From positions 620,001 to 684,000 of the forward strand of contig JAOVFP010000018.1 of assembly GCA_025738555.1 (NCBI GenBank): DNA of 64,000 bases. The letters are read 5' to 3'. This stretch comes from Cyathus striatus (lineage: Eukaryota > Basidiomycota > Agaricomycetes > Agaricales > Nidulariaceae). Position numbers and translations under genes: made by a program. Below are positions 35,996-60,696 of this stretch, piece after piece. The notes under the pieces are model-generated. The model saw only the letters and a list, made by a program, of their open reading frames with translations, did no database searches and had not been told where the DNA came from. The first letter of the stretch is position 1; each line of letters opens with the position of its first letter.

Positions 35996-36508
35996 ACACC
36001 TCAGACAGGAGTGAATCGGGGCGGGGTAAATATGGTACAAACAGATTTTCTTAACAATTAGAATGTGTACCAAAATCGGCTCCTTGAACAGATTCATGTT
36101 CATATTTAGAAAATAATGATGGATTGGTTCTAAACCCATACCGCGCTTCCATATTGAGAAAATGACAATAGAACAAAGGTAGAATCTGTGTGAAAAATTG
36201 GTTGTTAACGCAGATTCTCGCACAAATCCTGAATTGGAACGCACATTTGTTCACTGATCCTATCTAAACCCGGATTCTGGCTATGTTCAGCGCCCCTATC
36301 TTATCGCACATTCAGAATTTGTCCTGGTAACAGAGTCTGGATTGGTTCATTCATCAGATCCACTTGCCAATTCTAAATGTAATCAAAAATATGTTGTTCT
36401 ACCCTATGTACGTGCAGATTGTAAATATGGTAACGTATCATATTGATTGTCCCGCTCACAGGGCCACTCACAGGCCACTCACACCCGCTCATAACCCACT
36501 CAACCACT
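35996..36508 (+). repeat. Left terminal inverted repeat, about 510 bp
   Basis: Starts ACACCTCAGACAGGA and pairs with the right repeat (60188-60696) at about 94% identity, counted by eye (about 29 differences, many of them C/T or G/A). The inner 80 bp is an array of CCACTCA/CCGCTCA words, a possible set of transposase sites. A 67-residue frame is open in both repeats on the strand away from the end, with five changes, but lacks any domain. Confidence 0.85.
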
Positions 36509-36588
36509 CAATACATATATACAATTTCCCGCACAGCAGATATGTCCATATATGCAAAGAAATAAAAAATGAAAATTTGAAACTCTAC

Positions 36589-37231
36589 TCAAGCTCCTGT
36601 GCCACGAACGACCCTGGCTTCTTTCCTCTTCATTACAGATACTCCTTCAACTGCAGATGTGACTGGTGTTCGGCGACTTTTTCGGAAATTTCGCATTTTG
36701 ATCTTGATAATATCAAGAGTCAGCCAGTTGCTGTCATATCTACGAAGATCAGGATATCGACCTGCGGCCTTCAGAAGCGGTCGTTAGATATTGTCACAAT
36801 AATTAGTGGAAAGATGTACCTTCTCACATACAATATCAAGTTTACTGCTTTCCTGAGCAGCGTAAGTAATTCCGAAATCCAACTCCTCGTGGGCTAATTG
36901 AATGATATAGTTCTGCATGTCACAATGGTAAGAAAATAAATATTGCTCTGGAATAAATTATCACCTCCATATCGCTAAGTCGCTCCTGGCTGCATTCCAC
37001 ATGGTCAACTATTTTATAATTTTTTCCTGCCTCGCCCCGGGGTTTAGGAATAAGTACTCCAGAGCTTGTTGACGGCTCAGTGTCCTCTTCTTGTGGAAAG
37101 CAAGTCCTAAGAGTGCACGGAGGTGGGCTCAGAATACGTTCCGGCGAAAATCGTGAGCGTATAGTCAATGGAGAGAAATGGCACAAAACACGGTAGTTTC
37201 TAGTGGCAGGCATTTTTAACGTACCCATCAT
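36589..37231 (-). CDS. IPKPR-motif small basic protein, copy a
   Basis: The exon from 37231 encodes a Ser/Pro-rich leader and SSGVLIPKPRGEAGKNYKIV up to SDME. After an intron, NYIIQLAHEELDFGITYAAQ...IVCEK follows, and then a further exon RYPDLRRYDSNWLTLDIIKI with a basic tail ending GTGA at 36589. The module order (LIPKPRxE, a helical middle, a FPxLxxYExNWxxxD block) is the same as in copy b at 48741-49306. I recall this layout from small basidiomycete proteins of unknown function; a DNA-binding role is plausible from the charge but unproven. It is the first gene inside the left repeat and is transcribed toward it. Confidence 0.55.
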
Positions 37232-38010
37232 GATGTAGATGTGTACTTATAGTCTGAGAGACAAAAAAGAAGATAATTAACAAGGAAGGAAACATGTAGA
37301 ATTCAGAACAATATCGCCTCACCAAATAGGAATAGATGGGTTGGTATGGAGAATGGATGAGCACCTGTATGGAGAACGAGACAATAGAACTCTGCATCAA
37401 CTAGGGAGGCACTATTCGGTCGAATTGAACAATAAAATATGTTAAACGCAGTAATACACCGACACTATGGGTTACTAGAATTTGACATTGCCAGTGATTA
37501 TCTTGTGGCAACACCAGGCAACGTCGCAGAAGCATGAGGGGCGTGCTAGCGTAGCTGTGGTCGAAGCCGAAGGATGATGTGTAGGAGGGGGTTAAAACTT
37601 AGTACTTAGATAGTAAACGTACATTAAAACATATTGTAATTAATAGATAAATCCATGAATATATATAAACTCGTCGTGAGGGGGAGAGGCTTTACATGAT
37701 GTAGAGGTAGAACAACCGTGTGGGGTACGAGTGGGAGAGACAGGCCATGGCTATGCGCTGAGGTGGACGTGGTGTGGTCGTGCAAGATGGGGGTGGTGCA
37801 AAACCATGGGGTGGTGGTGCTGCGAGACGGTGTAGTGTTGCTGGTGGTGATACAGTAGCGTCGTACATACAAGGTTAATTCAGCTTAAGGAACAGTGGAT
37901 GGAAAGAATATAATAGTGTTGAACTGAAGAAATGAATTACGTTAGAATGAACTGGAGAAGGGGACGCCATAGTCGTAGAAGACAGTCATCGTGATGCAGA
38001 CACAGGGGAG
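37232..38010. other. Spacer inside the element
   Basis: No gene recognised. A GTGGTGGTG/CTGCGAGACGG-rich tract at 37680-37860 gives Thr/Ser/Pro/His frames on the minus strand, which I regard as low-complexity. Confidence 0.35.
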
Positions 38011-38013
38011 GGG

Positions 38014-38726
38014 GTGGTCATAGCGAGACGACGTGGGGAGAAGGCGACGGCATGGAGTTATGCGCCCTTCTCTGAGCCCGGGTTCGATTTCGGCTTGCGA
38101 AGGATGATGTCCCGCTACGCCGAGCGCAGGAGTTCCCGCGCCAGCACAACTACTGTGCTCCCTGACTATGAAACCAGTCAGCGGAACCGTGAGCTTCCAC
38201 CCATACCCATCCCTCGAAAGGTCCGGTCAGGGAAGCAACTTCAGCACGCCGCCGGGTGTGTTACCGAGTGCTGCTGTCTCACTAGACGATGTGATTGATA
38301 TTAGTCGAGAGACAGTGGGGCTGCAGAGGGCGATGACGCTGCATTCCGTGCGCTCGGTGCCCGCGATACACACCGCAGCTTCGAGGAGCGAGGAGGGAGC
38401 GTCTAATGCGAGTCTGACGACATTGTCGTCTAGTGTTACGCATTCACCGTTGACCCCGTTGAGGCTTGAGAGGAGCGAGCCGCCTGCGTATGCCAACGCC
38501 TTCTTTACCCTCGGTGACCCGTTGCATGCGGTATACGTTTTCGACTCTTTCATCCAACAGCATGGTTCTCCTCCCTCCCTCATATGCACTAGACACGCGA
38601 CCGATATATCACATATCGGCAGCAACGAACTGTTTCAACCCCTTGGCGCACACTATTGTCCGGAAAAGGCAGCGGTGGTGGGAGAAGGGGACCGCAGAGA
38701 AGGGGGGGACAGGGCATACGATGCAT
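38014..38726 (+). pseudogene. Captured fragment of a host Ser/Pro-rich protein tail
   Basis: Coding-like sequence starts FDFGLRRMMSRYAERRSSRA and continues STTTVLPDYETSQRNRELPP. It then shifts frame near 38170 into PYPSLERSGQGSNFSTPPGV, SNASLTTLSSSVTHSPLTPL and RSEPPAYANAFF. The PDYE, LPPIP and PPAY strings resemble cytoplasmic tails of fungal membrane proteins, where PPxY motifs recruit Rsp5-type ubiquitin ligase; that comparison is from general knowledge. No start codon context or domain is present. A frame change and the lack of a complete gene suggest a captured fragment. Confidence 0.35.
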
Positions 38727-38789
38727 AGACGGTGCTGGGAGACGTGAGGTAGCAGGCGGTGTTGACTCGAGCTAGGGGAAGGGGCTGAT

Positions 38790-39700
38790 CTAGCTCCGAC
38801 GTATGTGCGTGGCGTCGATATCACATGGCAGAATGGAACGTTGAGATTGGGGGACATTGAGATAAGGGTCGGTGAGGAGGAGGCGGTGGTGGTGGCAGAA
38901 GGGGCGCGTGGTAGAGAACGCGTGCTCGTTGAGGTGGGGGACGTTGAGGTAGCGGCCTCTGAGCCAGTACCAGTGCCGCTCTTTCAGCCTCTTCCCTTCG
39001 TTGCTGTCGAAATACCCTTTGGGGAAGTATGTGTCGAAGTAAGCCGCTTGGGAGTGAGGTGAGTCGAAGGCGCCAGTGGTAGAGATGAAGTGGTACGATG
39101 CTGGCTTGAGGACTGCACTGGAGATGGCTGTGTCTAGTGTGGACTGGGAGAGGCTGGTGCCGCTTAGGAGGAGGGTGAGGCCGTGTGTGGAGGAGAGGAG
39201 GGTGAGGGTGTGCATGGGCGAGGAGGAGGTGGTGATGGTGGCAGAAGGGAACAAGTTGGGGTGGGGGACGTCGAGGTAGGGGACGGGTCGGCCAGGAGGG
39301 GGCAGTGGTGGTGACAGTAGAAGGGAACGAGTTGAGGTGGGGGACATTGACGTAGGGAACAGGTCGGCGAGGAGAAGGCGGTGGTGGTGGCAGCAGAAGG
39401 GAATGAGTTGTGGGGGACGTTGAGGTAGGGGACGTTGAGGTAGGGGTCGGTGAGAAGGAGGCGGTGGTGGTGGCAGAAGGGAGCGCGTGGTAGGGGAACG
39501 CATGCTCGTTGAGTGGGGATGTTGAGGTAGGGGACGCGTGGTAGGGGACGCGTGTTCGTTGAGGTGGGGGACGTTGAGGTAGGAGACAAGTCGGCGAGGA
39601 GGCGGTGGTGGTGGCAGCAGAAGGAAACGAGTTGTGGGAGACGTTGAGGTAGGGGACGCATTGTAGGGGATGCATTCTCGTGCCTGTGGGGACCAGACGG
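38790..39700 (-). repeat. GT/CA-skewed minisatellite of GTTGAGGTAGGGGACG units
   Basis: Units such as GAACGCGTGCTCGTTGAGGT, GGGGGACGTTGAGGTAGGGG and GAGGAGGCGGTGGTGGTGGC are reiterated. All three minus frames stay open for 165-348 codons and encode Pro/Thr/Ser/His repeats (PLPQRPPPQ, TSTSPTSTS). Such triple-open frames reflect the skew and not three proteins. Confidence 0.75.
38950..39160 (-). pseudogene. Fragment resembling a Crinkler-like/P-loop ATPase gene, inside the minisatellite
   Basis: Between repeat blocks the minus strand encodes TSLSQSTLDTAISSAVLKPA, TTGAFDSPHSQAAYFDTYFP and LKERHWYWLRGR. The TTGAFD...Y...ERxWYWLRGR spacing is what I recall from a large basidiomycete family of P-loop proteins resembling Crinkler-type ATPases. 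A second piece may be at 39850-39996 (LNAWYGSVKEQDDVGLEKRL). No complete domain remains. The repeat arrays lie at both edges, so the gene was probably broken by minisatellite expansion or captured as a piece. Confidence 0.4.
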
Positions 39701-39999
39701 CAGACGTTGAGGAAAGAACGTACCGTCTACTCCACGTAGACGGCACTGGGTCGTGATCGTGAGTGGAGGAGCATCGTCGTTGGTCGTCGGTTAGTCGTGG
39801 GGGGTGGGGGGGGAGAAGTAGGCCAAGTGTTGTCACCGATTTGGAGAGTAGGCAGGGTAGTGGCGGGTATCCGTTCGAAATAAGCTTTCAAGCGCTTCTC
39901 GAGTCCCACATCATCCTGCTCCTTTACTGAACCATACCAAGCATTCAGAGATTTAAAACTGAGGTAGGTTCTTGTTATTTCAGATAGTTTTCTCAAAAT

Positions 40000-40900
40000 A
40001 ATATTCGCAGGTGATTGTTAAACATGGCAATAGAACCAACCTTCATCAGCTATAAGAAGCAGGCCGAGTTTTATAATGTGCATACCTTTCTCTTTAGTTT
40101 CTTGTTTTCTAAACAGCAAGATCACGGTAGGTAGGCGACCGAGTTATGGTGCGCTGGGGCGGCCCGGGGAGGCCTTGGAGAGCGGCTAGGCTGTTGGGCA
40201 TTCATCATCAAGGAGCGGAAAATGATGAGAGGAGGGAAAAAGGGCTTGAAATTAGCGAAGTGGAAGTAAGTCTCGTGTCAATGCAAACCAATTAACACTG
40301 ACCCCATCCTCATAATAGACAGTCCACTTCTACGTGTGCACGGGAAAGACGCCGAGAAGTTGTAGGATGGTGGGCTGGTACGATATACGCTACCCGTAAG
40401 TTTCTGTAACCGTTGTGTTTTTCTATCTACCATATCGTTAGTGCTCGAAATAGCTCAAATTGAATGGAATATATAGTACATAAATGTGTAGCTGAAAAGT
40501 TGTAACGTTGTAGCAATTAATAAATATCTTGGAAGAGACTGGAATGAGAACGCAAGGAGAACGTACAGTTAGTAAGGGGCAGGAAATATGCTGTATCATA
40601 AAGGAGAAGGGAACGTATGCGTAGTCCGTTGTCGTTATATAATGTAGCTCAGGATGCCATACCGAGGGTAAGGCACCAGGACGGGGTAAATGGAGGCATC
40701 TCCGGGGGAGCGCACACCATGAGGTGGTTGTCTTGTGTCCTGGAAGCCGTATGGGTGTTTGAGGTGTCAAATCTCTCATAGTTGGTCCCAAATCCATTCC
40801 GTCTCAATAAATCTTCATCAACTTCGGTCTTCGTCGGAGGGGGGCTTCCATAGAGGGATAACGCCCAACGTCTGTCGGAGACGTCCTGTAGCATTTGACG
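40000..40900. other. Spacer inside the element
   Basis: No gene recognised. Frames at 40438-40797 and 40649-40894 (minus) overlap in different registers with no domain. This may include the 3' region of WD40-A. Confidence 0.35.
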
Positions 40901-40906
40901 AGCAAA

Positions 40907-42520
40907 TTACAATGCAAAAGCCACGACGTTTACCAAGTAGTCGAACCCTACAATGTAAATAAATAGTAGACAAAAGATAGCGATCCCGCCGGCCACTTCA
41001 ACTACCGCCGGCATTCTTCGCTGAAATACTTGCATATGAGATGTCTGTTCAGAAGTAGGGCACGGATGATTTTTCGGGAAGGTACTGGTAGGTGAATTTC
41101 TGGTGCCTGACATCCATACTTTTATTTCGATGGCATCCTTATCTGATGTCCCAGTCGCAATAACACAATGCTCGTCAGAACTGAATGCCTGTAACCGTAA
41201 TTAGAGTTGCTCGTGTACTAGGCACATTGAACAAACCTCAGTGATTTGGACTAGTGTACCAACTAACAACAGAACAGTTAATGTGACATCAGCCGCATAC
41301 ATATATCATAATAACTTACCATAGCCATGGGGTAATAATGCGATTAATGTTCCCAAACACTGATCATATATACGTACTACTCCATCATCACTGCCGACAA
41401 CAACCAGTTCACCTTCGAATGCCGTTGAGACAACGAGAGGTACATTTGAGCGAATGGCATGTTTTAGTGATCAAAGCGGCTGTACAGGCGGTATAGCATA
41501 AATGTCGACACCATCTCTAAGATTTGAAACAATTAAAGTATCGTTGTCGGCGCTAACGATTGCGTGACCACTTAAGAAATGATACTGGGTGAGTTAACGT
41601 AATTGGGACGGCAAAAGACTAACATTCTGGTGTGTATCTCATGGATCCATCGCATCTTCCAAGGTGACATTTGATAGCAGAAACTGGCGCCGCATGATTT
41701 AACACTTTTACAAATGGAAGGACAATGTGACATACATTTCACGGGATTCCAAATAACAAAGAATTAGTTCTGTTCCGTTCTCAATAAATGCAACATTTCT
41801 AGCCGTGTGAGGAAGAGGAGTTGTCTCCACATATAACGTGGCCTGACCTAAAGAGATTAAGTGGGAAATGAATGGGATTTCGAAGATGAATTGCTTACCT
41901 GGAAAATTTAAGTTCCAAACCTTGAGGTAACCTTCGCCGAGTGAAGCAAGTCGACTATGGAACGGGTCAAACTTCAAGTCCTCCAAGGGGCCATCATGCG
42001 CAGAGATTGCCAACACTTGTTCATAACTATCACCGAAGGTATCTTCCTGATATCCCCGTATTATACCACTTCCAGTTCCAAAATATAACACTGTGGTACC
42101 AGTTTCGGGGAACGAGGCCCAGCAGATTGTAGTAACTTCCCCAATTATGGACGCTTCCCAAAGGCTTTCACCAGTATCCAGGTCCCATATTACTACAAGT
42201 CCGTCATCGCCTGGAAGGGTATTTTATTCATTCGTATAATGCTCAATCTATAGTATGAAATTGCACCTACCACAGCTGGCCAATTTTGTACCATCCGGGC
42301 TTATCTTTAATGCGCTGATCGCCTTCGAATGACGAGTGAACGTATATTCCAAGTCAAACTGCAAAAATTAATTCCTCAAAGCAAACACAAAATTTATAAG
42401 TACGCACAGTGAGAGTATCTGGCTTCATGAGGAGGGCGGTGTGATGGAACCACACCTCGTCGTAGCAATAGTATAAGTATCCAGATGCATATCACACCTA
42501 TTGTATTGTTTTGATACCTC
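40907..42520 (-). pseudogene. WD40-repeat protein A with C-terminal membrane anchor; one nonsense codon
   Basis: Multi-exon model on the minus strand. It reads FDLEYTFTRHSKAISALKIS, DDGLVVIWDLDTGE, ISAHDGPLEDLKFDPFHSRL then LKVWNLNFP, HTARNVAFIENGTELILCYL, VVVGSDDGVVRIYD and IEIKVWMSGTR. These are WD40 blades with intron positions equal to WD40-B. The C-terminus has a hydrophobic segment VAGGIAIFCLLFIYIVGF followed by a short tail ending at 40907. TGA at 41473-41471 falls after AIPPVQPL, where copy B has Lys, so copy A is probably inactive unless read through. The N-terminal exon is unresolved (start near 42520). It lies near the left repeat and is transcribed toward it. Confidence 0.6.
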
Positions 42521-43349: not shown

Positions 43350-44849
43350 ATTATCGTCGAGAAGCAGTGTAATAAGGCTCCTGTCTTCCCCATTCTGAAC
43401 CTTCCAGCGGAATTGGTCGACTTGATAATTATTCAAGCAGAGGATGGTTGCATGTTGTCGCTGATCCACACTAATCGACAATTGCACTATGCTACTACGG
43501 AAGTGTTTCTTAGAAGGCAAGGAGCGCTGACCACCGACATTTTCGGACGTACCAATATATCGCTTAAAGGAGTCGTTAGTCCAGCTACAATTCATCTTCT
43601 AGCGAATCTATCCACACGTTCCCGACGCCTCAGAGTAGATGTCAGCCTACACTGTGTGCTAGAGCACCTTACAGGACTACGTACATTCTTAAGCAAGGCT
43701 TTTGGTATGGAAGAGTTCACCATAGTTCATAGTTATGATGATGGAGAAGATACTCTGCCGGCAGAGCTCCAAGTCATCCGTTCCATCACTGCTATTCTGG
43801 CGAGTCTCCCCTCTTCTTGTACAAGTGTTGGCCTTGACAGCACCTACTCTCCACGAGTACTGTGTTCCACGGTAGCCTTACCATGTCCGCCGGAGATACC
43901 TTGCGACATAATCAAAAACGGTGTTGCAGTTGGGCTACGAAACCTCCGTATAGCGACTCACATCTTCGGTGATTCGAAAATGCTTGATATATTGTCTGTG
44001 CTTCTGGACGGACCGTCGCTAGAATTTTTAAGCATCAAAGGGAAAAGCGGAAGAGATATCGTACCAATCTTGGTTTGTGGATTGCTGCAGACCCTAAAGA
44101 CACTCTTGATCTCCTGTGACGAACCATTTTCATTTGTGCCGTCCACCACGTCTTCCGCTATGTGCCAACTACAACGTTTATGGATCTGTTGTACACCGGA
44201 AGGATGTAAGTCAGTCAGGAAGGGGTTCATCAAGATACCAGAGAGTGTTACCGATATTACATGTAACGAGCAGTTCCAGCTGACAGCCGTCTCGTCTTCA
44301 TTGAAGACAATTCAGCTTCGACTATCCGATTCATTTCCCAATCCAGATAATCACGAATTCTGCAGGGCCATAGCGAACATTACTTCCCCTCTCCAATCCA
44401 CATACGTTTCGATTCCGACACAGAGCATTACCATTGTGCTTCCTTACTCGATGGACGAACATATGGTGGCCAAAATGCAGTGCAAGTGCTCCATACCCGA
44501 CATTAGTGCCATACGCAAATGTCAAAAGATTGATATCCGTTTGGATTGTTCAGAAATTCTTTATCATGTGCGTTGTGTTGCCATCTTTCCCAGCCATCTA
44601 CCTGAATTAGATTATTAGGACTACTTTATCAAATTAATGAAGCATGCTTCAAGGCTAAGGAGTCTAACGATACACCCACCTTATGGAAATAGCCCGCGGT
44701 TCACCAAAAGCAAGGACTACATGCAGTCTTTTATAACGAAGCTTCGGATGTACTGCCCCGAGCTGGAGTCAGTAAGTTGTTCTCCCGACATATGGATACG
44801 TCGCCCCGGCGGTGACTTCATAAAGCAACTACTTAAAGAAATGGACTAA
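43350..44849 (+). CDS. F-box/LRR-like protein
   Basis: The exon opening at 43350 reads VEKQCNKAPVFPILNLPAEL VDLIIIQ, a clear F-box core. It continues for about 400 residues with LRR-like periodicity (ITAILASLPSSCTSVGL, LEFLSIKGKSGRDIVPIL, VCGLLQTLKTLLISC). A 51-nt intron (44568-44618) then joins YH in frame to DYFIKLMKHASRLRSLTIHP and the end LLKEMD at 44849. An upstream exon carrying the start is likely. F-box proteins link substrates to SCF ubiquitin ligases through Skp1; the target is unknown. The frame is intact. It differs in sequence and architecture from the F-box copies of the left flank, so it is element cargo and not their duplicate. Confidence 0.7.
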
Positions 44850-44944: not shown

Positions 44945-47900
44945 TTAAATAGATAGCCCAATAGCAATGCGTACATGAATATAGGGCTTCAAGGCCAAAA
45001 CTCCATCAGTCCATTTGCGCTTGATTGCGGGGTAGATCTGAATCTTGTTTGAGATTACGCGAACTCTCTCATCTAATAAATCCTTCCAGAGACTGACACC
45101 AAACTCTTCAAATCGGTCGAATACGCTTGGTATGTCTGCCCATTGCCTATAAGGGTGGACTGCGAATAAAATACACCCTTGTTCGTCAATTACTTCAAAA
45201 ATGTGTCGAATTATGGCTGGAATTAGCTGCTCAGAATCGGGATCTTTATAGAATATTACACTATTTCTCGATGTGTTATGCTTTGATGATAGCTGGCGTC
45301 CGTTGACTATATATCGATCATATTCGGTGACTCTAGTATCGTCCGCGAAGCCGGCCGCTTGTAACACTTCCAAATCAAGCTTAATATCTTTCCTGCTGGT
45401 AGGCTGACATGTATCGTCCGCCAACAATCGCATATCGTGAATCAATGTCCCAGACTGAACATCAGGAAAACACTCTTGCATGATTTCACTACTCCGTTTG
45501 ATAATTTTGGGACATCCTGGGCGTTGTAAGAATACACGCAGCTCCGACGCAGCACAGAAAGCATTCAACATCGATGCTTCCAGCTCTCCTAAAGATCCAT
45601 CAGTGCAGGTAATATGAAGTAGCCAATAAAACTCACCAAATTTAAAGTTGATATTTATTTTTTGTAAATTGCCGATTAACCGCTCGAATGGGAACATCCA
45701 CCAACCATGAATTGGTCCGAACAATGACAGGTATGTCGCCAGGTGGATAGCATTGTGATGAATGGGATGAAGGTCGACATCAGGCCTCAGTTCTCGAATT
45801 GAATGAAGATAGGCTAATATGAACTTCTTGAATTCCATGTCATGAAGTCCGGGTTGAACTCGGTGTGATGTAGCGTAACGAATAGCAATGGCGAGAAGCA
45901 GCGTGCTTTCAACCGCTTTTTGTTTCCTTCCATCTATTTCCAAGTTTTTACTTTCTCCACCACCCCACATTTTCGCCAATGAAACAGTCAGGTCGTAGTC
46001 AATGCAGGTCCGCCATTGATCGGCTTTCAATTTCCCATGAGACGGTGAACCAAAGTTTACTGGGGGACCTGCTTGCCAGCTCGGTCGGATCATATGCAAA
46101 ATATCTTCTTGTATCTTCTTTAAATCATCGTGTTCGAGAAGAGGAGTTCTAGAGAATTCCTCTTCAGGGCTTGTTCCTTCAGTATCTATCTCGATATCGG
46201 CAAAATCATGGATGATTGTACGTGCACGTTCTATCGAGTGGGGATCATCATTACGTTCCCTGGGTCCTGAGATTTCAAGCTTTCATCTAATTAATTAATG
46301 GTGAACTATTAAAAAGAGAAATGACTTACCAGTACGTTAACATATTGCTGCTTCTTAACCCTTCGACCAACTCGTCTCACCTTTTCTGAGACATTGAAGT
46401 GTCGACAAAGTGATTGCAACACGGGAATAGACAATCTGCATAGTCCTGAAGATGTTGGCTGGGACGACATTACTTCTAACCCTTTCTGAACTGACTTGGC
46501 CGTGGGTTCATTCGTTTCCGGAGTTTCGTTATGTTCCTGATTCTCTTCCCAATTCATACCAAGGATTACACGAAAATGATGTTTGACCAGACCTAGATAT
46601 AAGTTGTGCATTCCATCGACGACTGCGTACTTTGTCGGATCCCAGTATTCCAGACGGAGAAGCTCTGACCATCGAACTCCATTTTTTTTAAAAAGATTAT
46701 TCCTTTGAGTTTTAGTGGAAGCATCTCGCCAGTCGGCTGCCACTTTAAAGTGTTCTTCATATGTAACTGGCGTCCAGCTGGTGGAGGAGCAGTCGATGTT
46801 ATTAATATCTGGCTTCTGGAGATGACACAGAGAACAAAAAATTGTCGCAGAATGCGACGCACAACCTGTAAGTTTACGAGAGCCAGGTAGATCGCAAACT
46901 GCAGGAACAATAGCCTCACGACCACAAATCCCATTAGGATGTTCGTATGTGCGGCTATACCAAGTACCCTGATGATAGCTCTTGTGAAGGACGTCTACTA
47001 ATGGAGCTAAGTAAGGATTTAGGCCATCTAATGATGGCTGACGCGGCCCTGGTATCAACCCAGCGAGATAGATGTTCTCTGAACGGTACCGCAAACTTGG
47101 GGGTAAGCTAAGACATACAAGAGCCAACGATCCTACTGACGCCGATTTTCCTGCCGCTTTGTTGTGATAAGGGTTAAAAGCGTCATAGCTTATACTCCAG
47201 AGAGTACGTAGTTCTTCGTTTGAGTCAACAAATACTTTACCGTCAGCACCAACAAACTGACGAATTGCTACTGCTTGATTGATATCTCGAATCCCATCAA
47301 CAGATATTGCGCACCTAGTGCGATCAATCAATTGCTCTATTCCAGGGCGCGAGTACAGTGCTCCCGCAAAAGCCGTAAAGTCCTGCATTACATATGGCCT
47401 CGAAGGAACTGCGATGGTTATACCATTCCGAACAGCATGCTTTGTTAAGCGCACTCCGCACAGTTTCGCACCGGTAAAGCGTTTGAAGGTACAGCGAAAA
47501 GGGTATGCACCCTTTTCATCTGGGGGATAAATAGATGCGCAGGCTTGACAAGTAGCGAATATAGTTGTTTTGGGATCCAAGTTGAACTTTTTTCTCGCGG
47601 TTCGCAAGTCGTCAGGTATCAATTCGAGCACGGATTTCTGATCAGCTGAGAGAACTGAACCGAGTAAAAGCTTGACCATACGGAGGATAAAGTTGCAAGT
47701 AGGCCTGGCAGTATTCGCAAAAACATTGACAGCGACAGTAAGGAAGAGGGAGGCTGCAATGATTGGATGGCCGAGGTGCAAGGGATGGTCAAAGTGACTA
47801 CCTATGACAATCAAGTTACTAATCGCACTCTCAATAACATCGAAGTTACTCACTAGTATCATAGTATTTCCCATAAGAAACGCCCAGATTGCTCCAACGT

Positions 47901-48442
47901 CGAATGCGCGCATGGATGTCCACCAATAGATTCTCTGCTCGTTCCTGTATCGAACGTTTGAATGAAGTATTTGCATTGTCACCTGAAGTGGGAATGAGAT
48001 GAAGCCTAGCTATAAGGTCTCGTAGCCAGGTTTCTTGGTTCACGAGAAATGCATGTGCATCACTTCTTGCAAGGAACCTGGCGCCCTCTTTTTGCGAGGC
48101 TGGATTCCGTGTTCCATCTTCTAGCCACTCAAAATACACAGCACGGATGCTATCGCAAGAACTTTCAAGATTCCTATCATACTCGAATAAATTTCGGAAC
48201 ATCATTTGCGCGTCCATTTCATATGACGGAGGTGGGGCAAGAAACGGTGGAGAGTCTTGGGTAGGCAAGGAACAGACATCCTGGAGAGTGATGGAAAATA
48301 CTTGATCTTCAAGGTCTCGAAGATCAGCTTCAGCCCTGGCTTCTTCCTTGTGCACAAGATATTGCGCTTCTGTCATCGTTACCCCGTTACACCGACTGCA
48401 ATAGCAAACAGTAAGTTTCTTTTCCTTATTAGGACGTGGCAT
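44945..48442 (-). CDS. Tnp2-type (EnSpm/CACTA-like) transposase, intact model of 1131 residues
   Basis: Model exons are 48442-47854, 47801-46330 and 46279-44945, with GT-AG introns of 52 and 50 nt; the joined frame is 3396 nt with no stop. N-terminus: MPRPNKEKKLTVCYCSRCNG, a cysteine motif. Further cysteines CQAC (280, 283), C299 and C310 and the pair CSLC (518, 521) may bind zinc. The catalytic region shows SISYDAFNPYHNK (D402), LRYRSENIYLAGLIPGP, YAVVDGMHNLYLGLVKHHF (D591) and GWWMFPFERLIGNLQ (E886), which I take as the DDE triad by comparison with the Tnp2 family. The RPSW...SHGKLKADQWR and C-terminal IYPAIKRKWTDG blocks are typical of basidiomycete copies. It cuts and joins DNA at element ends. 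Being intact, it is the best candidate for mobilising the 24.7-kb unit. Confidence 0.85.
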
Positions 48443-49673: not shown

Positions 49674-52163
49674 TCAGCAACTAATACATAGTATAAGGAA
49701 AGCTTTATGAACTGTGTCAGGTAGTTCCCGTGGAGGCTGAGGATCCAATACAGTCTTTTGGCCTTTAGTAAGAGCCTTATACCAAGTTTGATCGTAATAG
49801 TTCGACGGAAGTCCTTTGACACATTGTTGGTCTTTCCTGGTCTTTTTTCCGGCCTTCGTTCCGGATGTAGATGCACCATGTTCCCTGAAGCAATGAACGT
49901 TACCGCCTCCCTTACAAAGGCCAGTGCCGTAAGTTTCTACGTTCCTGAATAAATCAGAAATACTATCGTTTCGCCAAGCTTTCACCCTTCGCCGAACTAC
50001 TTTCTGCCGTGTAGTTGTACCTTCGACTTCCGTTTCGTCCGAGCTCATCCCATCGACTCCCAGTATCTCATGAATGTGTTTGACCTCCTTCCATAGTTCA
50101 TTGTCCTCTTCTTTATTAGACAGGTGAGCCTTGATAACTTTTCCTCGGCGTTTCCATGTCTGCATAAGAATCTCAGCAGTGCGAAGTTGGATAACAAACA
50201 TAATGGAACACATACCCCTTCCCTACGAGTGAAACATCGGTTTCTTACTTTCTCTGCAACCCCACTTAGCTTAATTCTCTCTTTCTTTGAATGTGGTGTT
50301 TCATCGGAGTCCTCAGATGGCGGCTGTAAGGCCCGATATGCCGTAACACTATGTCCTAATCTACTCTTGATCTTAACTGCTAGGGCTTCCATCTTCATAT
50401 CATCCTCAGTAATGAGGATATTATCCCGTGTACTTTGATTGTTAAGCAGTGCTTGGTAGTCCAAAGCGAGGAGCCGGATCATCTCTGTGTTCCAATCAGA
50501 TGATAAAGGAGACATCCAATCAAGCGTTGGGGATGCAACATCTGGTACTGCTCTACGATCCTCAAACTCTTCGAGAAGCGCTTCGGATGGAGGACTGCGA
50601 AAATTTTTAGCATCTTTATACCACAGCCTCTTCGCAGCAAGGTAATTTCGTAGGTGTTCCTTTGTGAGAATCATTAGAAGGTTCAGTCCTGTAATTGAAA
50701 GATCAAACTTACGTTGAACCGTAATTCATCTGTGGTCTTTTTGGAGCGCTTCCTAGGAGATCGTACCGCTAAATCGTTGCTTTCATCCGCAGCGTCCATA
50801 CCATCATCCTCAGACGAACTTGGGCCATTAATCGGGCTAGGGCTCGTATTAGCTCCCGGGAGCGCATTTAGTAAACCTGTGAGGGATTGGACAAGCTGGT
50901 CATTGTAACGTTGAAGTTCTGGTCCAAGAGAAGTGGTGACATGCCGCGATAGAAATGTTATCTAAAAAGTTGAGATAAGGCACGGTATACAAGTATGTAG
51001 ATACTTACTTCCTCTAGGGAATAGCGCTGTGGAAAAACGGTTGGCTGAAAATTCGAAGGTATTGTTGGTTGCTGGTGGTCGGGCGAGGAATTGGCTGGTG
51101 GAGGTTGGGCTTGCTGCTGGTGGTTGGGCGAGGGAATAGCTGATGGATTGGCTTGAGCTTGCTGGTGGCTGGGCGGGGGATTGGGTGAAGGATCATTGGG
51201 TGAGGGGATTACGGGCAGCTGGTGTAATAGTAAACTTGGATCAATTTCCATACCTGAGAGCGGATCTTGGTGGGATGATGCCATGCCATCGATTTCCATA
51301 TGAAAATGGAGAGGGTGCGTAGGAGCAGGGACATCGGGAGGTGAACTCGGACCAGGGTTACCGGGCGCTGGCACGGGAATGTTAGACGACAGGACTGCAG
51401 AGGCTTGCGGTTCAGTCGCGGTGGATGGTGACCCATATGGTGTAAGATGATGGCCGTTCACAGAACTGGGTCGAGCAACAGCCAACGAAGGCGGAGGGGG
51501 TAAGGACCCGGGCAGTATAATCGATGCTGCTGCGCTAGCCTGCAGTGTAGGGGATGGTCCTGCTAGACTGGAGTTCTACACAAATAAATTTAGATGAAAG
51601 GGCGAGCAACGCGGTTACTTACTAGTGTAGCACGATAGAGCCCAGAAACCCTATCCTCCATTTCAGGCGCCTGGCAGGAAGGGATACTCGGAGGTAAAGG
51701 TGGAGGCGGAGGAACAACATTACCAGAAAGTCGAGGGGGCAAGGATTCGGTTTGCACTGGTGGCACAGTCGGGGATGGTCCCGTTAGACTGGGGACCTAC
51801 ACAATGAGATTAAGGGGATAAAAGGGAGAGTAATTAGGTTACATACTAGTGTATCACGATGGAGCCCGGAAACCCTATCCACCACTCCAGATACCTGGCT
51901 ATCTTCTGCGTCTGGGTGCCAGGTAGCAAACGGATTCTCAGTTACTGGTACTGGTTCATATTCATCAGGCCTTCGTTCAACCCTAACACGGGTGTATCAT
52001 GTAACTGCCTAGAAAGAAGGTGTAAGTTCATAGTATTATTTCATTGTACAACTTTACGCACTGGCTCATTGACGAGAGATTGAGACCGGTTATGGTTCAG
52101 CCTTTTAGGAACGGGGTAGTAAGGATGACCAGGTTCGACAGGAGGGTGTTGGTTGTTCGACAT
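49674..52163 (-). CDS. Proline-rich conserved-type protein with C-terminal globular region
   Basis: Minus-strand start at 52163 (MSNNQHPPVEPGHPYYPVPK). The exons encode two tandemly duplicated segments, DRVSGLHRDTL-VPSLTGPSP and DRVSGLYRATL-NSSLAGPSP, an internal exon duplication. A Pro/Ser/Gln-rich tract with PNHQQQAQPPP repeats follows, then ITFLSRHVTTSLGPELQRYN, a basic RSPRKRSKKTTDELRFN and the globular part (KEHLRNYLAAKRLWYKDAKN, LDWMSPLSSDWNTEMIRLLA, TWKRRGKVIKAHLSNKEEDN). The end is LPSNYYDQTWYKALTKGQKT and ISC at 49674. I recall proteins with the WYxxLxxxxKxxLxPxPPxELP tail from basidiomycete mobile regions, function unknown. All introns are GT-AG except a possible GC donor in the first. 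No lesion seen. Confidence 0.6.
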
Positions 52164-53867: not shown

Positions 53868-55492
53868 ATGTCCATTCAAGCCGATATTCCTAAGGTGTGT
53901 AGTGTTGCTTTCGCTTTCATGTCCCAGAACCAACAGATTAACGGAATAATACTTAGTTCAAGACTACTCAAACGCTGAGTTACCATATGAAGCCCATAAA
54001 TGTTTTAAAGCTAAGCCCGGATGCGTCAAAGCTTCTAAGTGGAGGTAAGTACTTACATGGATTTATAGACTTGCCACTCACTGTACTAGCGGACGACGGA
54101 ATGGTGGTTATTTGGGATACCATGAGTGGGATCAGTCTCGAAAAAGTTAACTTGGTATTTCATGGACCTGTGTCTTCGGCCGTCTGGATGCCTAGTTCAG
54201 ATGGTGTTACATGTTCCAACTTCGCAGTCGGATCTTCGGATGGTTCCATAATGGTATATCACCATGAAAGTAGCAAGGTATTTCGCTTAACGTATATATT
54301 ATTCGCTTATTTATTCTTTTTCATTTCCAGTACGTATGTAAGAGTGTTACAGAGGCACACGAAAATCGTGTAGAGGATTTAGCATTTGATCGGTATGGTC
54401 AGCGTCTCGCCAGTATTGGCAATGGCCGTTTGCTGGTATGGACGGTCAACCACAAAGGTACGCGTTGTCAAACGTGACGTCTCAGGAATTCACAGAGGAC
54501 ACAGGTGACATTGATGAGTATGCTGGAACTCCGGCACCAGACTTTAAGCATAGATTTCGTAGCGTCGCTTTTCACGACGACGGAAAACAGATCTTATATT
54601 CCGTTTTGGAAACGCACGAAATGTGAGTAATAACTCTTGTAATAACTGTTGCGATTACAATAGTCATGCTATGACTGATCTCTTGCGATAGCATTAACTA
54701 TCAAGTTAATCCTTGGACTCACCAATGGAGTCGTCGCTTAAGGTCTCGAATGTAGATATTTACCTTGTGCACTAAATTTCTTACCTACCACTTACCTGTA
54801 CCAGTGGTCATGCAGTCGTGTCTGGAAAAGAGATGCATGTTTCCAACCTGTTCAACGGAGTCGACACATACGCTCTCCCACCTTCCCAGCCGTTAAAGAC
54901 CTACGAGCATCCAATTTCCCGCAATTACCCCATGCATCTCGCATGTGGTCGACAAGGCTCCCTCATAATTGTCGGTAGCGACGACGGGTTTCCACGTGTG
55001 TTTTCGCGTTTCGGGAATATGCAGACGTCTTTGCCACACGAAAGAAATATTCTAACGCAGATTGTCGACGTAAGTATATTTCGTTTAGAATTGAGACAGG
55101 AGCTAATACGGTCTCTTTAAGTGTGCCGCGATCGGTTCGATATGCATAATAGCCACAGGATCGTCAGAAGCTGATAATCGTGAAACACACTATCCAATTA
55201 AGCTATGGAACTCAACTTCTGCTGTAAGCCTTCTATCTTGCTGCTCGTATTTATTGTTAATTGTAATTTCATCTACAAGCATAACACATCGAAGGGCATC
55301 TCCACTCCAGAGAAAGTCCGGAATACTGAATCATTGACCTATATGCAGATGTTATCTATTATATTGATTGTTCTATGTTTCCAGGTACTATTATCAAGCG
55401 AGATGGTTGGAGAGTGGGTTCAGACGCACGTGGCTTCAGTGTTGTTGGAGAAATGGAATTTAGATTTCAGTTTTCGCAACTACGCGCTTTAA
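53868..55492 (+). CDS. WD40-repeat protein B with C-terminal membrane anchor
   Basis: A nine-exon model (starts 53868, 53957, 54090, 54331, 54496, 54692, 54805, 55122, 55280) joins to 1197 nt, 398 residues, all introns GT-AG (45-70 nt). Blades include MKPINVLKLSPDASKLLSG then DDGMVVIWDTMSG, GSSDGSIMVYHHE, ENRVEDLAFDRYGQRLASIG then LLVWTVNHK, and VGSDDGFPRVFSRFG. The hydrophobic MLSIILIVLCFQVLL near residues 352-366 suggests a tail anchor with a short basic/aromatic end. A TATAAAA string is about 50 bp upstream of the start. It is homologous to WD40-A exon by exon but without lesion. WD40 propellers are scaffolds; the membrane attachment is predicted only. Confidence 0.75.
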
Positions 55493-55494: not shown

Positions 55495-55700
55495 AACAAC
55501 TACGCGCCTTAAATAATGATATCGGACTATACAGATATAAACTACGCGCCTTAAACAATTATATTAAACTATGGCTGGTCTCGATTCGTATGTTGGACAA
55601 TACAAGAGTGCATTGCTTTGAATATGAGGGCGTGGAGAATGAAGCGGGGAACGAGCGGGGAGCATGTGGAGATGTCACGTGCCTGAAGAGCCTGCCCTAA
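55495..55700. other. Spacer with ACTACGCGCCTTAAA repeats and palindrome half-site
   Basis: (C)TACGCGC(C/T)TTAAA occurs three times (about 55480, 55500, 55547). GAAGCGGGGAACGAGCGGGG at about 55638 matches the GAGCGGGG words of the terminal repeats, and GAGCCTGCCCTAAATGTTTT at about 55687 is one arm of the palindromes. This lies about 130 bp upstream of the Spt5-like start. Confidence 0.6.
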
Positions 55701-55827
55701 ATGTTTTCATATCCAATAAATAGAAAGCGGGTGTTGCAGGTTCTTTCCTTTGTACTCTCATTACCTCGACACAACATAGATATAGTTGAAGTAGATATAG
55801 TAGCTACCGTAGATACTTTAGCATACA

Positions 55828-58773
55828 ATGGCCAAAGACAACTGTGCACTGAATCAAGATGGTTCTTTGAAAGACGCGAGCCAGATTCAATGGTACTTTG
55901 ACCCTGATGATGAAGTATCTCAAAATCAGGTACCTCAACCTCGGCGGAGAAAAACAAAGAGAGCTAAAGTAGCAGTAACGAAACCATCTCAATATAGTAA
56001 CGCAATTGCTAACTTCAGGGTATAGACGTTTTTAGATCTGGAAGCTCAAGTGGCTTCCGGCTCGGAGGATGAAAATGACGAAGAGGAACCGGACGGTATG
56101 TATATCAAATAGCAATACCTGAATGCAACATGCTGATTGAGAACTATTTTTATAGAATTTATTGTAGATAGCGAAGAAAATGACGATGAAGATCCCAACG
56201 TTCCTGTTTGTCGGCTGGAGCTAGCGCGCTCGGTTCAAGCTGAACGACAGCCAGAAATTATCGGCCGTCTCTATAAAAAGTATGTCCTCTCACGCGGAGG
56301 TGCACATTCGCACGCTGGACCTAGTTCAACAACTGTCATAAGCAAGCACAATGTCGCCCATCGCGGTCGAGTAGCTCGGGACTGGTCCCTTTATGACATA
56401 CCAGTTAAGGTAAGTGAGTTGTCACCAGATCTGACGAGTATCTGGCTCACATTTTGTAGAATGGATCGGAGGAACGGATTGTATACCAGCTCAATTTACA
56501 TGCTGGCCCCAAGCACATTCGAAGTGCCTTTGCATTGTCCGTTATCCCGGGGCACGTTTACACAGAGGCTCTTAATCTTGAAGACCTGAAGAAATTTACC
56601 AAAATCTTTGGCGACGTCGACCAGTTCCATATTCATCCTGCACCAAATATTATGTGGGATTCTTACTTTGGAAACGTTGGCGCGAGCTATACACCCTACA
56701 AGCATACTTGGGTACGACTCAAAGGAAAATTTCGATATGATCTGGCGTTTATTATAAACGTCTGCGATCGCACATTTCGGATTGACGTCGTTCAGTTGCC
56801 TCGAGTAGAATACACAGATTCATCGAAACGAAAGCAGTCGTCGTCGAGCTCGAAACCAGCCTGCGAGCTATTCAACCCTGAACTTGCAAGGCAAGCATGC
56901 CCAGAAAAGTTCAAAGTTGAATATGAAGACGCCGATAATAAAATTATTAAAAGATATATATTTCGAGGATCATTTTATACTGCCGATGGTTTCTTACTAC
57001 GTCGGAAAGTCGATTCTGACGAGCACTATCAAGTCGAAGGGACACCGACAATGGAAGAACTGAGATCCTTTGATCGCTGTAGCCAAGTTCCTAAGGAGGT
57101 TTTGGAACAGACAAGACGTGCGGTATTATCGGCAAATATACGTATACGCGATCAGGTAAAGGTTGTCCTCCAAGGAATAGTTTCTCTGGTCTTCGTGGAA
57201 GATATCACAGAAGAAAACGCGACGATTAGGCTCTTCCATTCACCGGATGTTCTCTTCGAATATCCATTAAATTTACTTGAGAAGTGCTTCAAGATTGGCA
57301 ACGGAGTTAGGGTAAAGTCGGGCAAACACAAAGGAGTTGTCGGTATGGTCACAAATGTGGAGGCGTGTGGGCGTGTAGGCGAGGAAAATATTACAATTGT
57401 CGCCTTTCCGTTAAAGAAGGTAACTTTAAACCCATTTATTCCAGAGTATTTTTATTCTAACCGACTAAGCAGGGAAAACATGTACCAGTTCGCTCCTCAG
57501 ATTTGGACTTCTGTAGCGAAGTTCATAGAAATAGTACGTTTAGGTGGGAAGATAGTAATGACACAAGCACCCCAGATGCATCTGGGAGTCGGACTATTGA
57601 GGATAGGCTCATGCGTAATGATCCATATCGGTCGCTTTATGGGCTATATGGCGTGGTTACTTCCGGTCCTCAAAAGGGGGACATTGGGATACTAAAGTGT
57701 GTTAACGCCAATGGTCGCGCCGAGCTTGAAGTTGAAGCCCGCCTGATAAGTACGAGCAAACTTGAGGAGGTTTCAATAATGGATTTATATATTCCTGGGT
57801 ATTTACGTATCTCAATATGTATTCCAATCTATAAAACTAATAAATTATTACAGATATAACATTTCAAATATACTGCCATTTGACCTCGAAGGAGCTACAG
57901 ATCATCCTTCATGGAATGTCTGTCTGACACCTGCTTGGGAAAATGATTCTGGGATCGGGTCCCAAACACCAGCTTGGGATCCTAACTCAAGAACCCCGCA
58001 AGTAAGTACTTATAATTACATTTGCAAAGGATTAATTCTTGATCATATTCGGCCTAGATTTCCAATGTTGTATCCGCCGAAGAGCTTGCCTACCCCCATC
58101 GAAGTTAGTTACTCATTTTGATGTTGTCGCACGTCACTAATAGCAGTTTATAGTTCCAGAAAACATAGCTTCAATATCTGCTTTGCAAGCATCTGCTCCT
58201 CTTCCAGACTCAATGAGAACGGCTGTTATTGGTGAAGGGTCATCTGCTCGTGACGCTTCAACAGATGCATTCAATAGTGTGTATCATTCTTACAGTTCTG
58301 GATTATTGACCGATATTAATATCTTCGTAGGCCACTGGATAAATCAACTTCTCGAAGCGGACAGCTCATTTTTGGATCGTAGATATCTTCATGTGGTTAT
58401 CTCAGGATCTCTACCAACTGCTGCTAGTTCTGGGTTCGAAAGGGGCAGATATGAAAAATGCAGCGGTACCTATCTGGGATTGATGAGAAGTAATAGATCT
58501 ATCCGGGTGGAAATAACAGGCGGACAAGAACTTGAAGTCCCAGCTGAGTATGTGCACCCGGAAGCCCCTAGCAGGAAGGGTGAACGTGTAATGATCGTAA
58601 ACCGTCGTAACCACCAGCTGTACAGGGAAGTATTCATGGTACTTGGCCTGACGGAACAGGGAATTGAAGTCTGTCCTGTAAAAGGACAGAACAGAGCAAA
58701 GAAGATGCGTGTTGTACCGGCTCAGGATCTCGGAGTATTTGTGGAAAAACTTTTTAAGGGCATACGTTTATGA
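55828..58773 (+). CDS. Spt5-like transcription elongation factor paralogue
   Basis: An eight-exon model (55828-55929, 56026-56095, 56156-56409, 56460-57419, 57470-57798, 57854-58001, 58058-58103, 58154-58773) joins to 842 codons in frame. The N-terminus has FLDLEAQVASGSEDE and FIVDSEENDDED, the acidic region of Spt5. ARDWSLYDIPVKNGSEERIV then ALSVIPGHVYTEAL is an NGN domain (about 120-230). KCFKIGNGVRVKSGKHKGVV (about 415) is a canonical KOW, DPYRSLYGLYGVVTSGPQKG (about 510) a second, and SRKGERVMIVNRRN a third, weak one. TPAWENDSGIGSQTPAWDPN then SRTPQ (about 580-605) is a remnant of the Spt5 C-terminal repeat region. Spt5 with Spt4 clamps RNA polymerase and chromatin factors. The first exon junction is uncertain: without it an in-frame TAG (56023-56025) occurs. 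As element cargo this is unusual. Confidence 0.75.
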
Positions 58774-58853
58774 CACCTTGCACATTGCTCATGTATTATA
58801 ATTTCTTGTTCGACTTCAACATAGTATTTTAAATTTGTACATAATATTACATT

Positions 58854-59886
58854 TCATTGGCGAACTTTATCTACTATATTTTTATTGGTGCAAAGAATTA
58901 CTCGTAGGAATCCTTCTGGGTCCATGAGGTCGTCCAATTCATCAACAGTAAGCTTTCCCGAATTATATTGATAATAAGGATGATATCTCTTAGGGTCTAT
59001 GGGCTACAAATAGTCAGTAATTAATGGTGAGTTCATAAAATTTTCATACTAGAACTGTCATTGATGTTTGGAGCTGCTCTTCAATTATTGACAGGTGAAG
59101 AGTCCCTTCGTCATCGACGACGCAAGACATTTCGTGTATATGTCGCCAGTCCTTTGCAGATTTGTACACTCGAACAGCAACATCCTTATTTCGTGGCACC
59201 TTCACTGTGGTATGTCGAGGTTTCGTAGAATTTATTACGTTTCTAACCACATCCATAACTGTATCGGATTCCATGTATGTTAATTGTGGAGACTCGATGT
59301 TCTGTGTTACTGCTTCCGGTGTGTCACGATCTATTAGCTCATAGGGGAGATGCTGATACTGAAAATTGGTGTGGCTTGGATGTTCGTGTACTCTTTAGAA
59401 TATTCGGGATACTCAGTGAGATAGGCAGAAGGCAGAAGGGAAGTCTTAGGACATACCTCTTTTTTTTTCTGTTTCGGCAACTCTTCATGTTCGCCTTCGC
59501 CAATCGTTTTCTCGAATTAGAGGTATTTCCTCTGTAGTACAATATCAGCCTTCGAATTTTGACATTTGAAGAGAAGTCTTAATGACTAACCTTTTTCTTT
59601 TTCTTTTTGGAGGAGACTCTTCATGTTCGCCTTTCGCTGGTCGTTTCCTTGAGTTAGGAGCTGTTGATAATGCTTGGGTTTGACCATTCTTATATGCAAC
59701 AAGTGCAACTATGAAGTCGTTCTTAATTGGTACCCCCGGCTTCCTTCGACCAGTCGCTTGAACATTCACATGACTGTCTTTACAAAGTTGCTGAAGAATG
59801 TGGTATGGGAAGGACCTGAGTGCGGATTCACGAACAACGGCTCTTTGAAGAACCTGTTCTGCTTCCTGGATCGACAAGTTAGACAT
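58854..59886 (-). CDS. SAP-like, nuclear-signal protein
   Basis: The start at 59886 gives MSNLSIQEAEQVLQRAVVRE, then FPYHILQQLCKDSHVNVQAT and KPGVPIKNDFIVALVAYKNG, a SAP-like helix-turn-helix where the usual short loop is longer. A basic tract SRKRPAKGEHEESPPKRKRK, possibly a nuclear signal, follows; an exon repeating it (SNSRKRLAKANMKSCRNRKK) looks like an exon duplication with a 1-nt shift. After an intron come LPYELIDRDTPEA, the segment VDDEGTLHLSIIEEQLQTSM and a last exon PIDPKRYHPYYQYNSGKLTV ending IVDKVRQ at 58854. SAP domains bind AT-rich DNA; here it is inferred from pattern only. Tail-to-tail with the Spt5-like gene, 80 bp apart. Confidence 0.55.
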
Positions 59887-60187
59887 TGTGATTTAACGAC
59901 TCCAGAATGAACCATGACTATAAGTATTCAATGCTGGATATGATGCCGGGCACTTGCCGAGCAAAGCTTGCCATCCTCTTTTATAGCGCACAAGTATATT
60001 CTTATTGTTTCTTATTGTATTCTCAATCACTGTTACTACAAAGAGCTTATAATAGGAAACATTCACTGTCTTATATCGAACCTCCCGGTTCTATAATAAA
60101 GGTTGAAAAAGCCTTATCAACCCAAGGTGTGGGGCTAACATCTCGGCTCCATCCCTAGGCAGGAACTGAGTGGGGACGGAGCGGGGA

Positions 60188-60696
60188 GTTGAGTGGGCCA
60201 TGAGTGGGTGTGAGTGGCTTGTGAGTGGCCCCGTGAGCGGGACAATCAATATGATACGTTACCATATTTACAATCTGCATGTACATAGGGTAGGAGAACA
60301 TATTGTTTATTACATTTAGAATTGGTGAGTGGATCTGATAAACAAACCAATCCAGACTCTGTTACCAGGACAAATTTTGAATGTGCGATAAGATAGGGAC
60401 GCTGAACATAGCCAGAATCCGTGTTTAGATAGGATCAGTGAACAAATGTGCGTTCCAATTCAGGATTTGTGTGAGAATCTGTGTTAGCAACCAATTTTTC
60501 ACACAGATTCTACCTTTGTTCTATTGTTATTTTCTCAATATGGAAATGCGATATGGGTTTAGAACCAATCCATCATTGTTTTCTAAATATGAACATGAAT
60601 CTGTTCAAGGAGCCGATTTTGGTACACATTCTAATTGTTAAACAAATCTGTTTGTACCATATTTACCCCGCCCCGATTCAGTCCTGTCTGAGGTGT
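60188..60696 (-). repeat. Right terminal inverted repeat, about 510 bp
   Basis: Ends ...TCCTGTCTGAGGTGT at 60696, mirror of the left repeat. The inner part is an array of GAGTGGG/GAGCGGG words (GAGTGGGGACGGAGCGGGGA), as on the left. Flanking base order differs from the left side, and no duplication was found. Confidence 0.85.

Follow-up and report, generated by a model that had tools for sequence, protein, structure and literature searches.

A 24.7-kb, seven-gene element with long inverted ends, probably a giant EnSpm/CACTA transposon, in Cyathus striatus

The E1 locus

The window studied here is a stretch of 64,000 nucleotides from the basidiomycete Cyathus striatus (assembly GCA_025738555.1, contig JAOVFP010000018.1, here C18, positions 620001-684000), and the genome searched throughout was its own, 107.45 Mb in 24 contigs. 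Within the window lies E1, an element of 24,699 bp in which a Tnp2 transposase gene and six companion genes are enclosed by two long opposed repeats. A sequence-only reading had proposed a gene-carrying DNA transposon at this place, with opposed repeats of about 510 bp at about 94% identity, and the repeats are borne out: the arms at 35996-36504 and 60188-60696, each of 509 nt, are opposed, 94% complementary and recurrent genome-wide, and a chance origin can be excluded because the best genome match of the left arm after itself has an E value of 9.9e-266. The bounds proposed at that time, 35996 and 60696, enclose the element but take in one base of flank on each side; the outermost A/T of the arms is flank, and the element proper begins with CACCTCAGACAGG and finishes with its complement, giving true limits of 35997 and 60695.

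The features of E1 are listed below by window position and strand. E2 to E18 denote the other copies of its subfamily (A), and dN/dS is the ratio of nonsynonymous to synonymous substitutions between A and a second subfamily, B.

35997..60695, no strand assigned: whole element E1, 24,699 bp, CACCTC...GAGGTG, with ends common to 18 paired copies
35997..36504, plus strand: left terminal inverted repeat, ~508 bp; E2, E3 and E4 match it at their corresponding end with 99-100% identity
37900..40200, no strand assigned: GC-rich minisatellite segment in which no conserved gene was recognised and the scanned frames gave no Pfam match; it lies inside the alignments to E2, E4, E6 and E17
41100..42448, minus strand: left WD40 gene (WD40L), best exon 41711-42223, weak WD40-type matches below cut-off, dN/dS 0.12-0.13
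43350..44846, plus strand: F-box/LRR-like gene, exon 43350-44615 and a possible further exon 44619-44846, dN/dS 0.21
44948..48442, minus strand: Tnp2 (EnSpm/CACTA-type) transposase, open frames at about 48442-47849, 48009-46312 and 46282-44948
49677..51575, minus strand: G5, a gene without assigned function, exon limits set by eye, dN/dS 0.28
53957..55489, plus strand: right WD40 gene (WD40R), WD40 match at E 1.8e-5, just below cut-off, right limit set by eye, dN/dS 0.10 over 77 codons
55828..58755, plus strand: Spt5 homolog with NGN and KOW motifs and a CTR-like TPAW..GSQTPAWDPNSRTP stretch, placed by tblastn of the protein P0121
59548..59892, minus strand: small SAP-like protein, SAP-like motif and basic tail resembling a nuclear localisation signal, read by eye, dN/dS 0.21
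60188..60695, minus strand: right terminal inverted repeat, ~508 bp; its identity to the left one is 94%

Copies, target duplications and the exchange of flanks

The left arm found 40 scored places among 309 candidates in the genome. Thirty-eight of these matches reach at least 91%, and 36 of the 38 form 18 plus/minus pairs spaced 8.5-50 kb, leaving two unpaired ends of subfamily A (C12:2954546 and C1:1842090). The remaining two matches, at 74%, belong to subfamily B; a search with this 74% end likewise gave 40 scored places, among 312 candidates, many of them paired, and 13 B pairs were read off. The genome count stands at 18 paired A copies and at least 12 paired B copies, which share their genes, so that the search for paired ends around homologous cargo suggested by the sequence-only reading was successful. 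The pattern which that reading had named as damaging, end repeats occurring mostly as dispersed single copies, is not seen for the long repeat, whereas the first 13 bp alone do occur dispersed, as described below.

Full interiors were compared for seven of the other 17 A pairs (E2-E6, E17 and E18), the remaining ten being compared by their ends. E17 is 99.1% identical to E1 across 23.8 kb, E2 is 99% identical in three blocks, and E3-E6 are 96-99% identical with insertions and deletions; the six full-length copies compared (E2-E6 and E17) thus lie at 96-99% identity to E1, and E18 is a diverged deletion derivative of 8.5 kb. The six full-length copies differ from E1 by 0.55-2.2%. Transitions account for 95-98% of these differences, and CpG against TpG/CpA for roughly three quarters or more, a pattern that points to a recent burst of copies followed by methylation-type decay. 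The ten other A interiors are known through exon matches, and since some of these reach only 76-85% protein identity, subfamily A does not all stem from one burst.

Several observations concern the structure of individual copies. The divergence between left and right ends is about 6% within E1-E4 and E9 and only about 1% within E10, E11 and E15, and subfamily A probably holds at least two lineages, one with E1-type and one with E10/E11/E15-type ends. Nested insertions, about 1.9-4.1 kb in size, are present in the interiors of E3-E6 (loci L014-L027). Several of them have termini of the TGTCAGCC type and long repeats inside, and some show overlaps of 6-7 bp at the insertion point. E2 holds an insertion of 15.9 kb, and the longer fetched copies contain nested repeats.

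Target duplications were tallied for the 18 A pairs and for 10 of the 13 B pairs. The ends CACCTC..GAGGTG are present in 17/18 A pairs and 9/10 B pairs; in E11 a T stands in place of the first C, and the start of this copy was placed one base ahead of ACCTC for the scoring. The sequence-only reading had described the ends as beginning CACC at best, which is true to the letter, but they do conform to the CAC..GTG pattern. An exact 3-bp target duplication flanks 16 of the 18 A pairs, compared with 32/306 among mispaired flank controls, and none reaches 4 bp; by eye, 8 of the 10 B pairs have one as well.

The two A exceptions are E1 (TAA/TGA) and E2 (TTA/TCA), which are located 159 kb from each other on one contig, in opposite orientation. 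When the intervening segment is flipped back, the duplications of both are restored and all 18 A pairs become exact, the triplets of E1 pairing as follows:

35994..35996, no strand assigned: left flank triplet TAA of E1, which pairs (as TTA) with the E2 left flank after the inversion is undone
60696..60698, no strand assigned: right flank triplet TGA of E1, which pairs with the reversed E2 right flank (TGA)

E1 therefore shows no clean duplication in the window because it and E2 have exchanged flanks. The earlier statement that no target duplication is visible was right for the window taken alone, but it fails for the family, in which 16/18 pairs are exact and E1 and E2 repair each other. Joining the left flanks of E1 and E2 also rebuilds a continuous minisatellite of ~59 bp, whose halves now stand beside E2 and beside E1, and the join aligns across to the unoccupied relatives L015 (71% over 1,082 bp, 88% over 323 bp) and L018 (84% over 421 bp), the register of this alignment being inexact because the sequences are tandem repeats. 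The segment C18:497165-655996 between E2 and E1, which ends at window position 35996, seems to be reversed in comparison with the ancestral arrangement. Recombination between the inverted copies E1 and E2 probably flipped these 159 kb, and a flip made in the assembly would look alike.

The flanks of the 16 other copies were joined and compared with all fetched sequence. The joined flanks of E17 align unbroken to L022 (91% over 767 bp) with a single TAT, and those of E5 match L016, L017 and L019 at ~89% over ~310 bp, so that these two copies have empty-site relatives.

The exact 13-base end occurs at 277 genome places, versus 3 for the reversed pattern. Among the 100 of these places that were listed, 79 lie outside A/B elements and 21 at the ends of A/B elements or clusters, by eye. 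Six dispersed ends were sampled, which proved to be four complete short elements (~150 or ~400 bp) and two that are cut short. In the four complete ones the outer 45-120 bp resemble A or B ends, and three of these four have an exact 3-bp duplication by eye; against the A end, the match of the six is limited to the outer 43-80 bp, plus stray matches of 13-25 bp. These short elements look like non-autonomous users of the same transposase.

A conserved set of seven genes

Genome searches with seven E1 exons, with matches tabulated by hand, revealed seven genes in fixed order and orientation: WD40L (minus), F-box (plus), Tnp2 (minus), G5 (minus), WD40R (plus), Spt5-like (plus) and SAP-like (minus). 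All seven are found in 11 of the 18 A pairs and six in 6 more, while E18 has none. Among the 12 tabulated B pairs, eight carry all seven in the same order, and in the remaining pairs the numbers are six, four, four and one. The table omits secondary fragments and weak WD40 cross-matches (for instance, 76 of 101 Spt5-like rows were kept). Nor does it include C11:382507-422009, a further B pair, or some ten additional B clusters in which fewer than two ends were scored. Where about nine genes had been proposed besides the transposase, only six turn out to be conserved across the subfamilies.

Protein identity between A and B ranges from 45 to 77% across the seven genes, and dN/dS from 0.10 to 0.28; these ratios come from a single B partner for each gene, or two in the case of WD40L, and are only rough, because dS is above 1. 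Selection tests within subfamily A were dropped because most differences between its copies are CpG transitions. Since gene order is kept in both subfamilies and all ratios are low, the seven genes have been under purifying selection from the time A and B diverged, and the companions are long-standing parts of the element. By eye, all tabulated F-box and WD40L matches adjoin other element genes or element ends, and G5 and the SAP-like gene have one stray match each, at C3:6711015 and C24:1438539; for the G5 exon 50048-50725 all tabulated matches but one weak one adjoin other element genes, and for the SAP-like gene 39 of 40 adjoin other element genes or ends.

The sequence-only reading had seen an intact-looking Tnp2 transposase, and we agree with it. 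The protein, whose start was set from the homolog P0001, matches PF02992 above cut-off (E 1e-11), while a DUF4218 match in the next exon stays below it (E 1e-4). By eye, its translation contains the motifs DLPGSRKLTG and CSLC and, in the next exon, HNAIH and FPFER, so that C(2)C and H(3-4)H motifs, assigned by eye without a reference alignment, stand between the second D and the last E. Three copies (E1, E4 and E17) keep the main exon open from end to end, and dN/dS between A and B is 0.10. In a set of 5.8 billion proteins the transposase has 229 relatives, the best at 51-57% identity, with 47% in Coprinellus aureogranulatus.

The model of the Spt5-like gene was built from the Cyathus striatus protein P0121. 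Spt5-NGN and KOW Pfam matches were obtained, each below its curated cut-off, and phmmer matched the protein to Spt5 with E 3e-6. In a profile comparison it matches the Spt5 chain 8qsz_Y with E 4e-11 for the whole sequence, the best stretch scoring 21.6 bits; the TPAW stretches align to the Spt5 profile and are non-significant alone. An AlphaFold2 model of the protein (predicted local distance difference test, pLDDT, 34.8) is confident only in the NGN part, and its top Foldseek matches are chains of Spt5-containing polymerase complexes. All three Spt5 hallmarks (NGN, KOW and CTR) are thus recognisable, the Pfam evidence for them lying below cut-off. The A-B dN/dS is 0.21, and a candidate host SPT5 at C20:1395325 has 26% identity to the element gene.

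For the F-box/LRR-like gene, the Pfam scan gave neither an F-box nor an LRR match. Its AlphaFold2 model (pLDDT 50.8) has only two matches in the PDB at E <= 0.001 by Foldseek, namely the ubiquitin-ligase subunits D3 and COI1, both of them F-box/LRR proteins. As both AlphaFold2 models are poor, their best Foldseek matches were used as support only. The two WD40 genes are paralogs with ~32-47% identity in the aligned parts, and over 41100-42448 the left one is 71-72% identical to subfamily B at the DNA level. Neither the SAP-like protein nor G5 gave a convincing Pfam match.

The association of Spt5-like and Tnp2 genes extends beyond the A/B elements. Of 29 distant Tnp2 matches (28-39% identity), eight have an Spt5-like gene no more than 15 kb away, where 0.5 would be expected and the maximum in 2000 shuffles was 4, with the sizes of C1, C5, C7 and C16 guessed in this null model. 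Outside the tabulated A/B pairs lie 49 of the 76 Spt5-like matches, some in untabulated B elements and others near distant Tnp2 genes. Judging from gene positions, the Spt5-Tnp2 pairing is older than the A/B element family. Several outlying Spt5-like genes are near distant Tnp2 and WD40 genes (C4:6441845-6458207 and C11:100346-114381), and such clusters suggest a third giant family with other ends.

Classification, alternatives and possible roles

We consider E1 to be a copy of a giant, autonomous-type EnSpm/CACTA DNA transposon of the CMCT clade that carries seven genes and has multiplied as a unit, and we put the probability of this at about 0.85. The placement in EnSpm/CACTA follows from the Tnp2 transposase, the CAC..GTG ends and the 3-bp duplications. 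Typical EnSpm/CACTA elements have inverted ends of tens of bp and one or two genes, traits that are typical rather than defining, and E1 departs from them with its ~508-bp ends and seven genes. Of the earlier proposal of a new kind of giant DDE transposon, the giant, gene-carrying DDE element stands, on paired ends, target duplications, empty sites and copies, but not the new kind: the transposition chemistry looks like that of EnSpm/CACTA, and what is new is the size, the length of the ends and the set of genes.

Fungal EnSpm elements, as described in Kojima 2025 (PMC12730594), have CAC..GTG ends and 3-bp duplications, with TET/JBP as a captured gene. E1 resembles these in having a transposase of the Tnp2 type, with the C(2)C, H(3)H and final E motifs, in its ends and in its duplication length, and differs from what that text describes in its 24.7 kb, its seven conserved genes, its ~508-bp ends and its Spt5 homolog; no TET/JBP gene was recognised in the 40 E1 frames scanned. 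Plavaka, which the same text places in Agaricomycotina and likewise in the CMCT clade, has a related transposase type, but its A/B ends are given as TGT..ACA with 2-bp or CATCA..TGATG with 2-3-bp duplications, in contrast to CACCTC..GAGGTG with 3 bp in E1. Outsized, multi-ORF (open reading frame) CACTA elements are on record from the red alga Chondrus crispus, whose En/Spm elements are enlarged to 16-20 kb with 4-5 ORFs (cited in PMC6431247); unlike E1, these are smaller and algal, and the passage concerned names no Spt5, F-box or WD40. A soybean CACTA of 20.5 kb, called putatively autonomous in its title (PMC2613891), is similar in length, going by that title, but is a plant element. Searches of the open-access literature, judged mainly by titles and opening lines of abstracts, brought up neither an Spt5-encoding transposon nor a giant fungal CACTA, which falls short of proving that none has been described.

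A number of points weigh against our interpretation. Movement is deduced from copies and none was observed; E2-E6 bear insertions and deletions, and stop codons occur in some exon of many copies. Ten of the 18 A pairs are known only by their ends and exon matches. In fetched sequence, 14 of the 16 joined sites lack an unoccupied relative, and the E17 and E5 sites are in repeated DNA; the right-flank join of E1 and E2 likewise has no unoccupied relative there and no reading frame crossing it. The class assignment is based on domain, motifs, ends and duplications. The functions of the companions, with the exception of Tnp2 and Spt5, derive from weak domain matches, and their role against silencing is conjectural. 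Moreover, the relatives of the Spt5-like protein (4/4) and of the F-box protein (1/1) in the 5.8-billion-protein set are all from Cyathus striatus.

On our interpretation, the Tnp2 transposase would bind both ends, excise the 24-kb unit and join it at a 3-bp staggered target, and the short elements with similar ends would use the same enzyme. The companions may serve the life cycle of the element and not the host, which we hold less firmly. The Spt5 homolog might help RNA polymerase II through the CpG-methylated chromatin of the element, or act in competition with the Spt5 of the host; a host silencing factor could be the target of the F-box protein and the two WD40 proteins, working as ubiquitin-ligase receptors or scaffolds; and the small basic SAP-like protein could bind or tether the ends. 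The companions may thus counter silencing, and selection to escape it is plausible because the heavy CpG decay suggests methylated copies; the nearness of distant Tnp2 genes to Spt5-like genes is a hint in favour of such roles. That E1 belongs to a giant DDE lineage carrying a co-evolved elongation and ubiquitin-ligase kit (Spt5 paralog, F-box protein and two WD40 proteins) for transcription in, and spread through, heavily CpG-methylated chromatin is a tentative suggestion, which we doubt rather more than we believe.

The alternative that survives best accepts the transposon as described but sees the companions as selfish or neutral riders with host-like functions and the E1/E2 swap as an assembly flip, and we regard it as a serious contender, if somewhat short of an even bet. 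Inverted copies that are 99% alike are a classic place for an assembly flip, the swap being supported and its cause not; against riders, purifying selection on all companions in two subfamilies argues for a role in the spread of the element, and the heavy CpG decay, in suggesting methylation, makes silencing escape plausible.

Much less probable, and largely refuted, is an ordinary CACTA element with recently captured host genes as passengers. Plant CACTA elements do carry captured fragments, the WD40, F-box and Spt5 families have host members, and a candidate host SPT5 is present in this genome; recent capture is, however, hard to square with the presence of all seven genes, in unchanged order, in B, at 45-77% protein identity and dN/dS of 0.10-0.28, and with F-box, WD40L, G5 and SAP-like matches that nearly all adjoin element genes or ends.

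A composite of two single elements opposed around a piece of chromosome, which the sequence-only reading had offered as its second option and to which the short elements with similar outer ends lend some colour, is contradicted by copy alignments, target duplications and gene recurrence: six or seven genes recur in 17/18 A pairs and 9/12 tabulated B pairs, the duplications stand outside both ends, no terminus is seen at the inner edge of the repeat, and the short elements share only the outer 43-80 bp. The 96-99% identity of the full-length copies implies that E1 is neither a composite nor random cargo. The captain of a Starship is a tyrosine recombinase, and these elements have direct repeats and cargo that is for the most part variable; Polintons have terminal inverted repeats of hundreds of bp and a 6-bp duplication; a giant element of either kind, or a virus-like one, would fit the size range, the multi-gene content and, for Polintons, the long ends, but it is highly improbable given the Tnp2 transposase, the 3-bp duplications and a Pfam scan of 40 of the 84 E1 open frames of at least 75 aa that found no captain and no Polinton/Maverick polymerase B, retroviral-type integrase or capsid. 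Starships are giant and fungal as well, and E1 differs from them in its DDE transposase and fixed content. Eight Starships, at least one of them with terminal inverted repeats, are reported from the basidiomycete Tremella fuciformis in PMC13066641.

If our interpretation holds, a DDE cut-and-paste transposon can persist as a stable 24-kb, seven-gene unit, beyond one or two genes and occasional passengers, and gigantism in fungi is not confined to tyrosine-recombinase Starships. A mobile Spt5 homolog would offer a direct route to asking how transposons get transcribed in silenced chromatin, and near-identical inverted 24-kb copies would be recombination sites for large inversions.

Three further features were noticed elsewhere in the window. 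Inverted arms at 24576-24734 and 29491-29648, about 5 kb apart, comprise parts of 64 and 106 bp at 78-82% complementarity, with no duplication seen at their outer ends. Direct repeats of several hundred bp at 3309-3992 and 21859-22538, 18.55 kb apart and ~79-85% alike, represent a dispersed repeat. Finally, a 4.2-kb element at 3078-7292 has 131-bp inverted ends TATGG..CCATA (93%) with AAATAG flanking both sides, which fits the description of IS3EU (TAYGG..CCRTA, 6-bp duplication) in PMC12730594.

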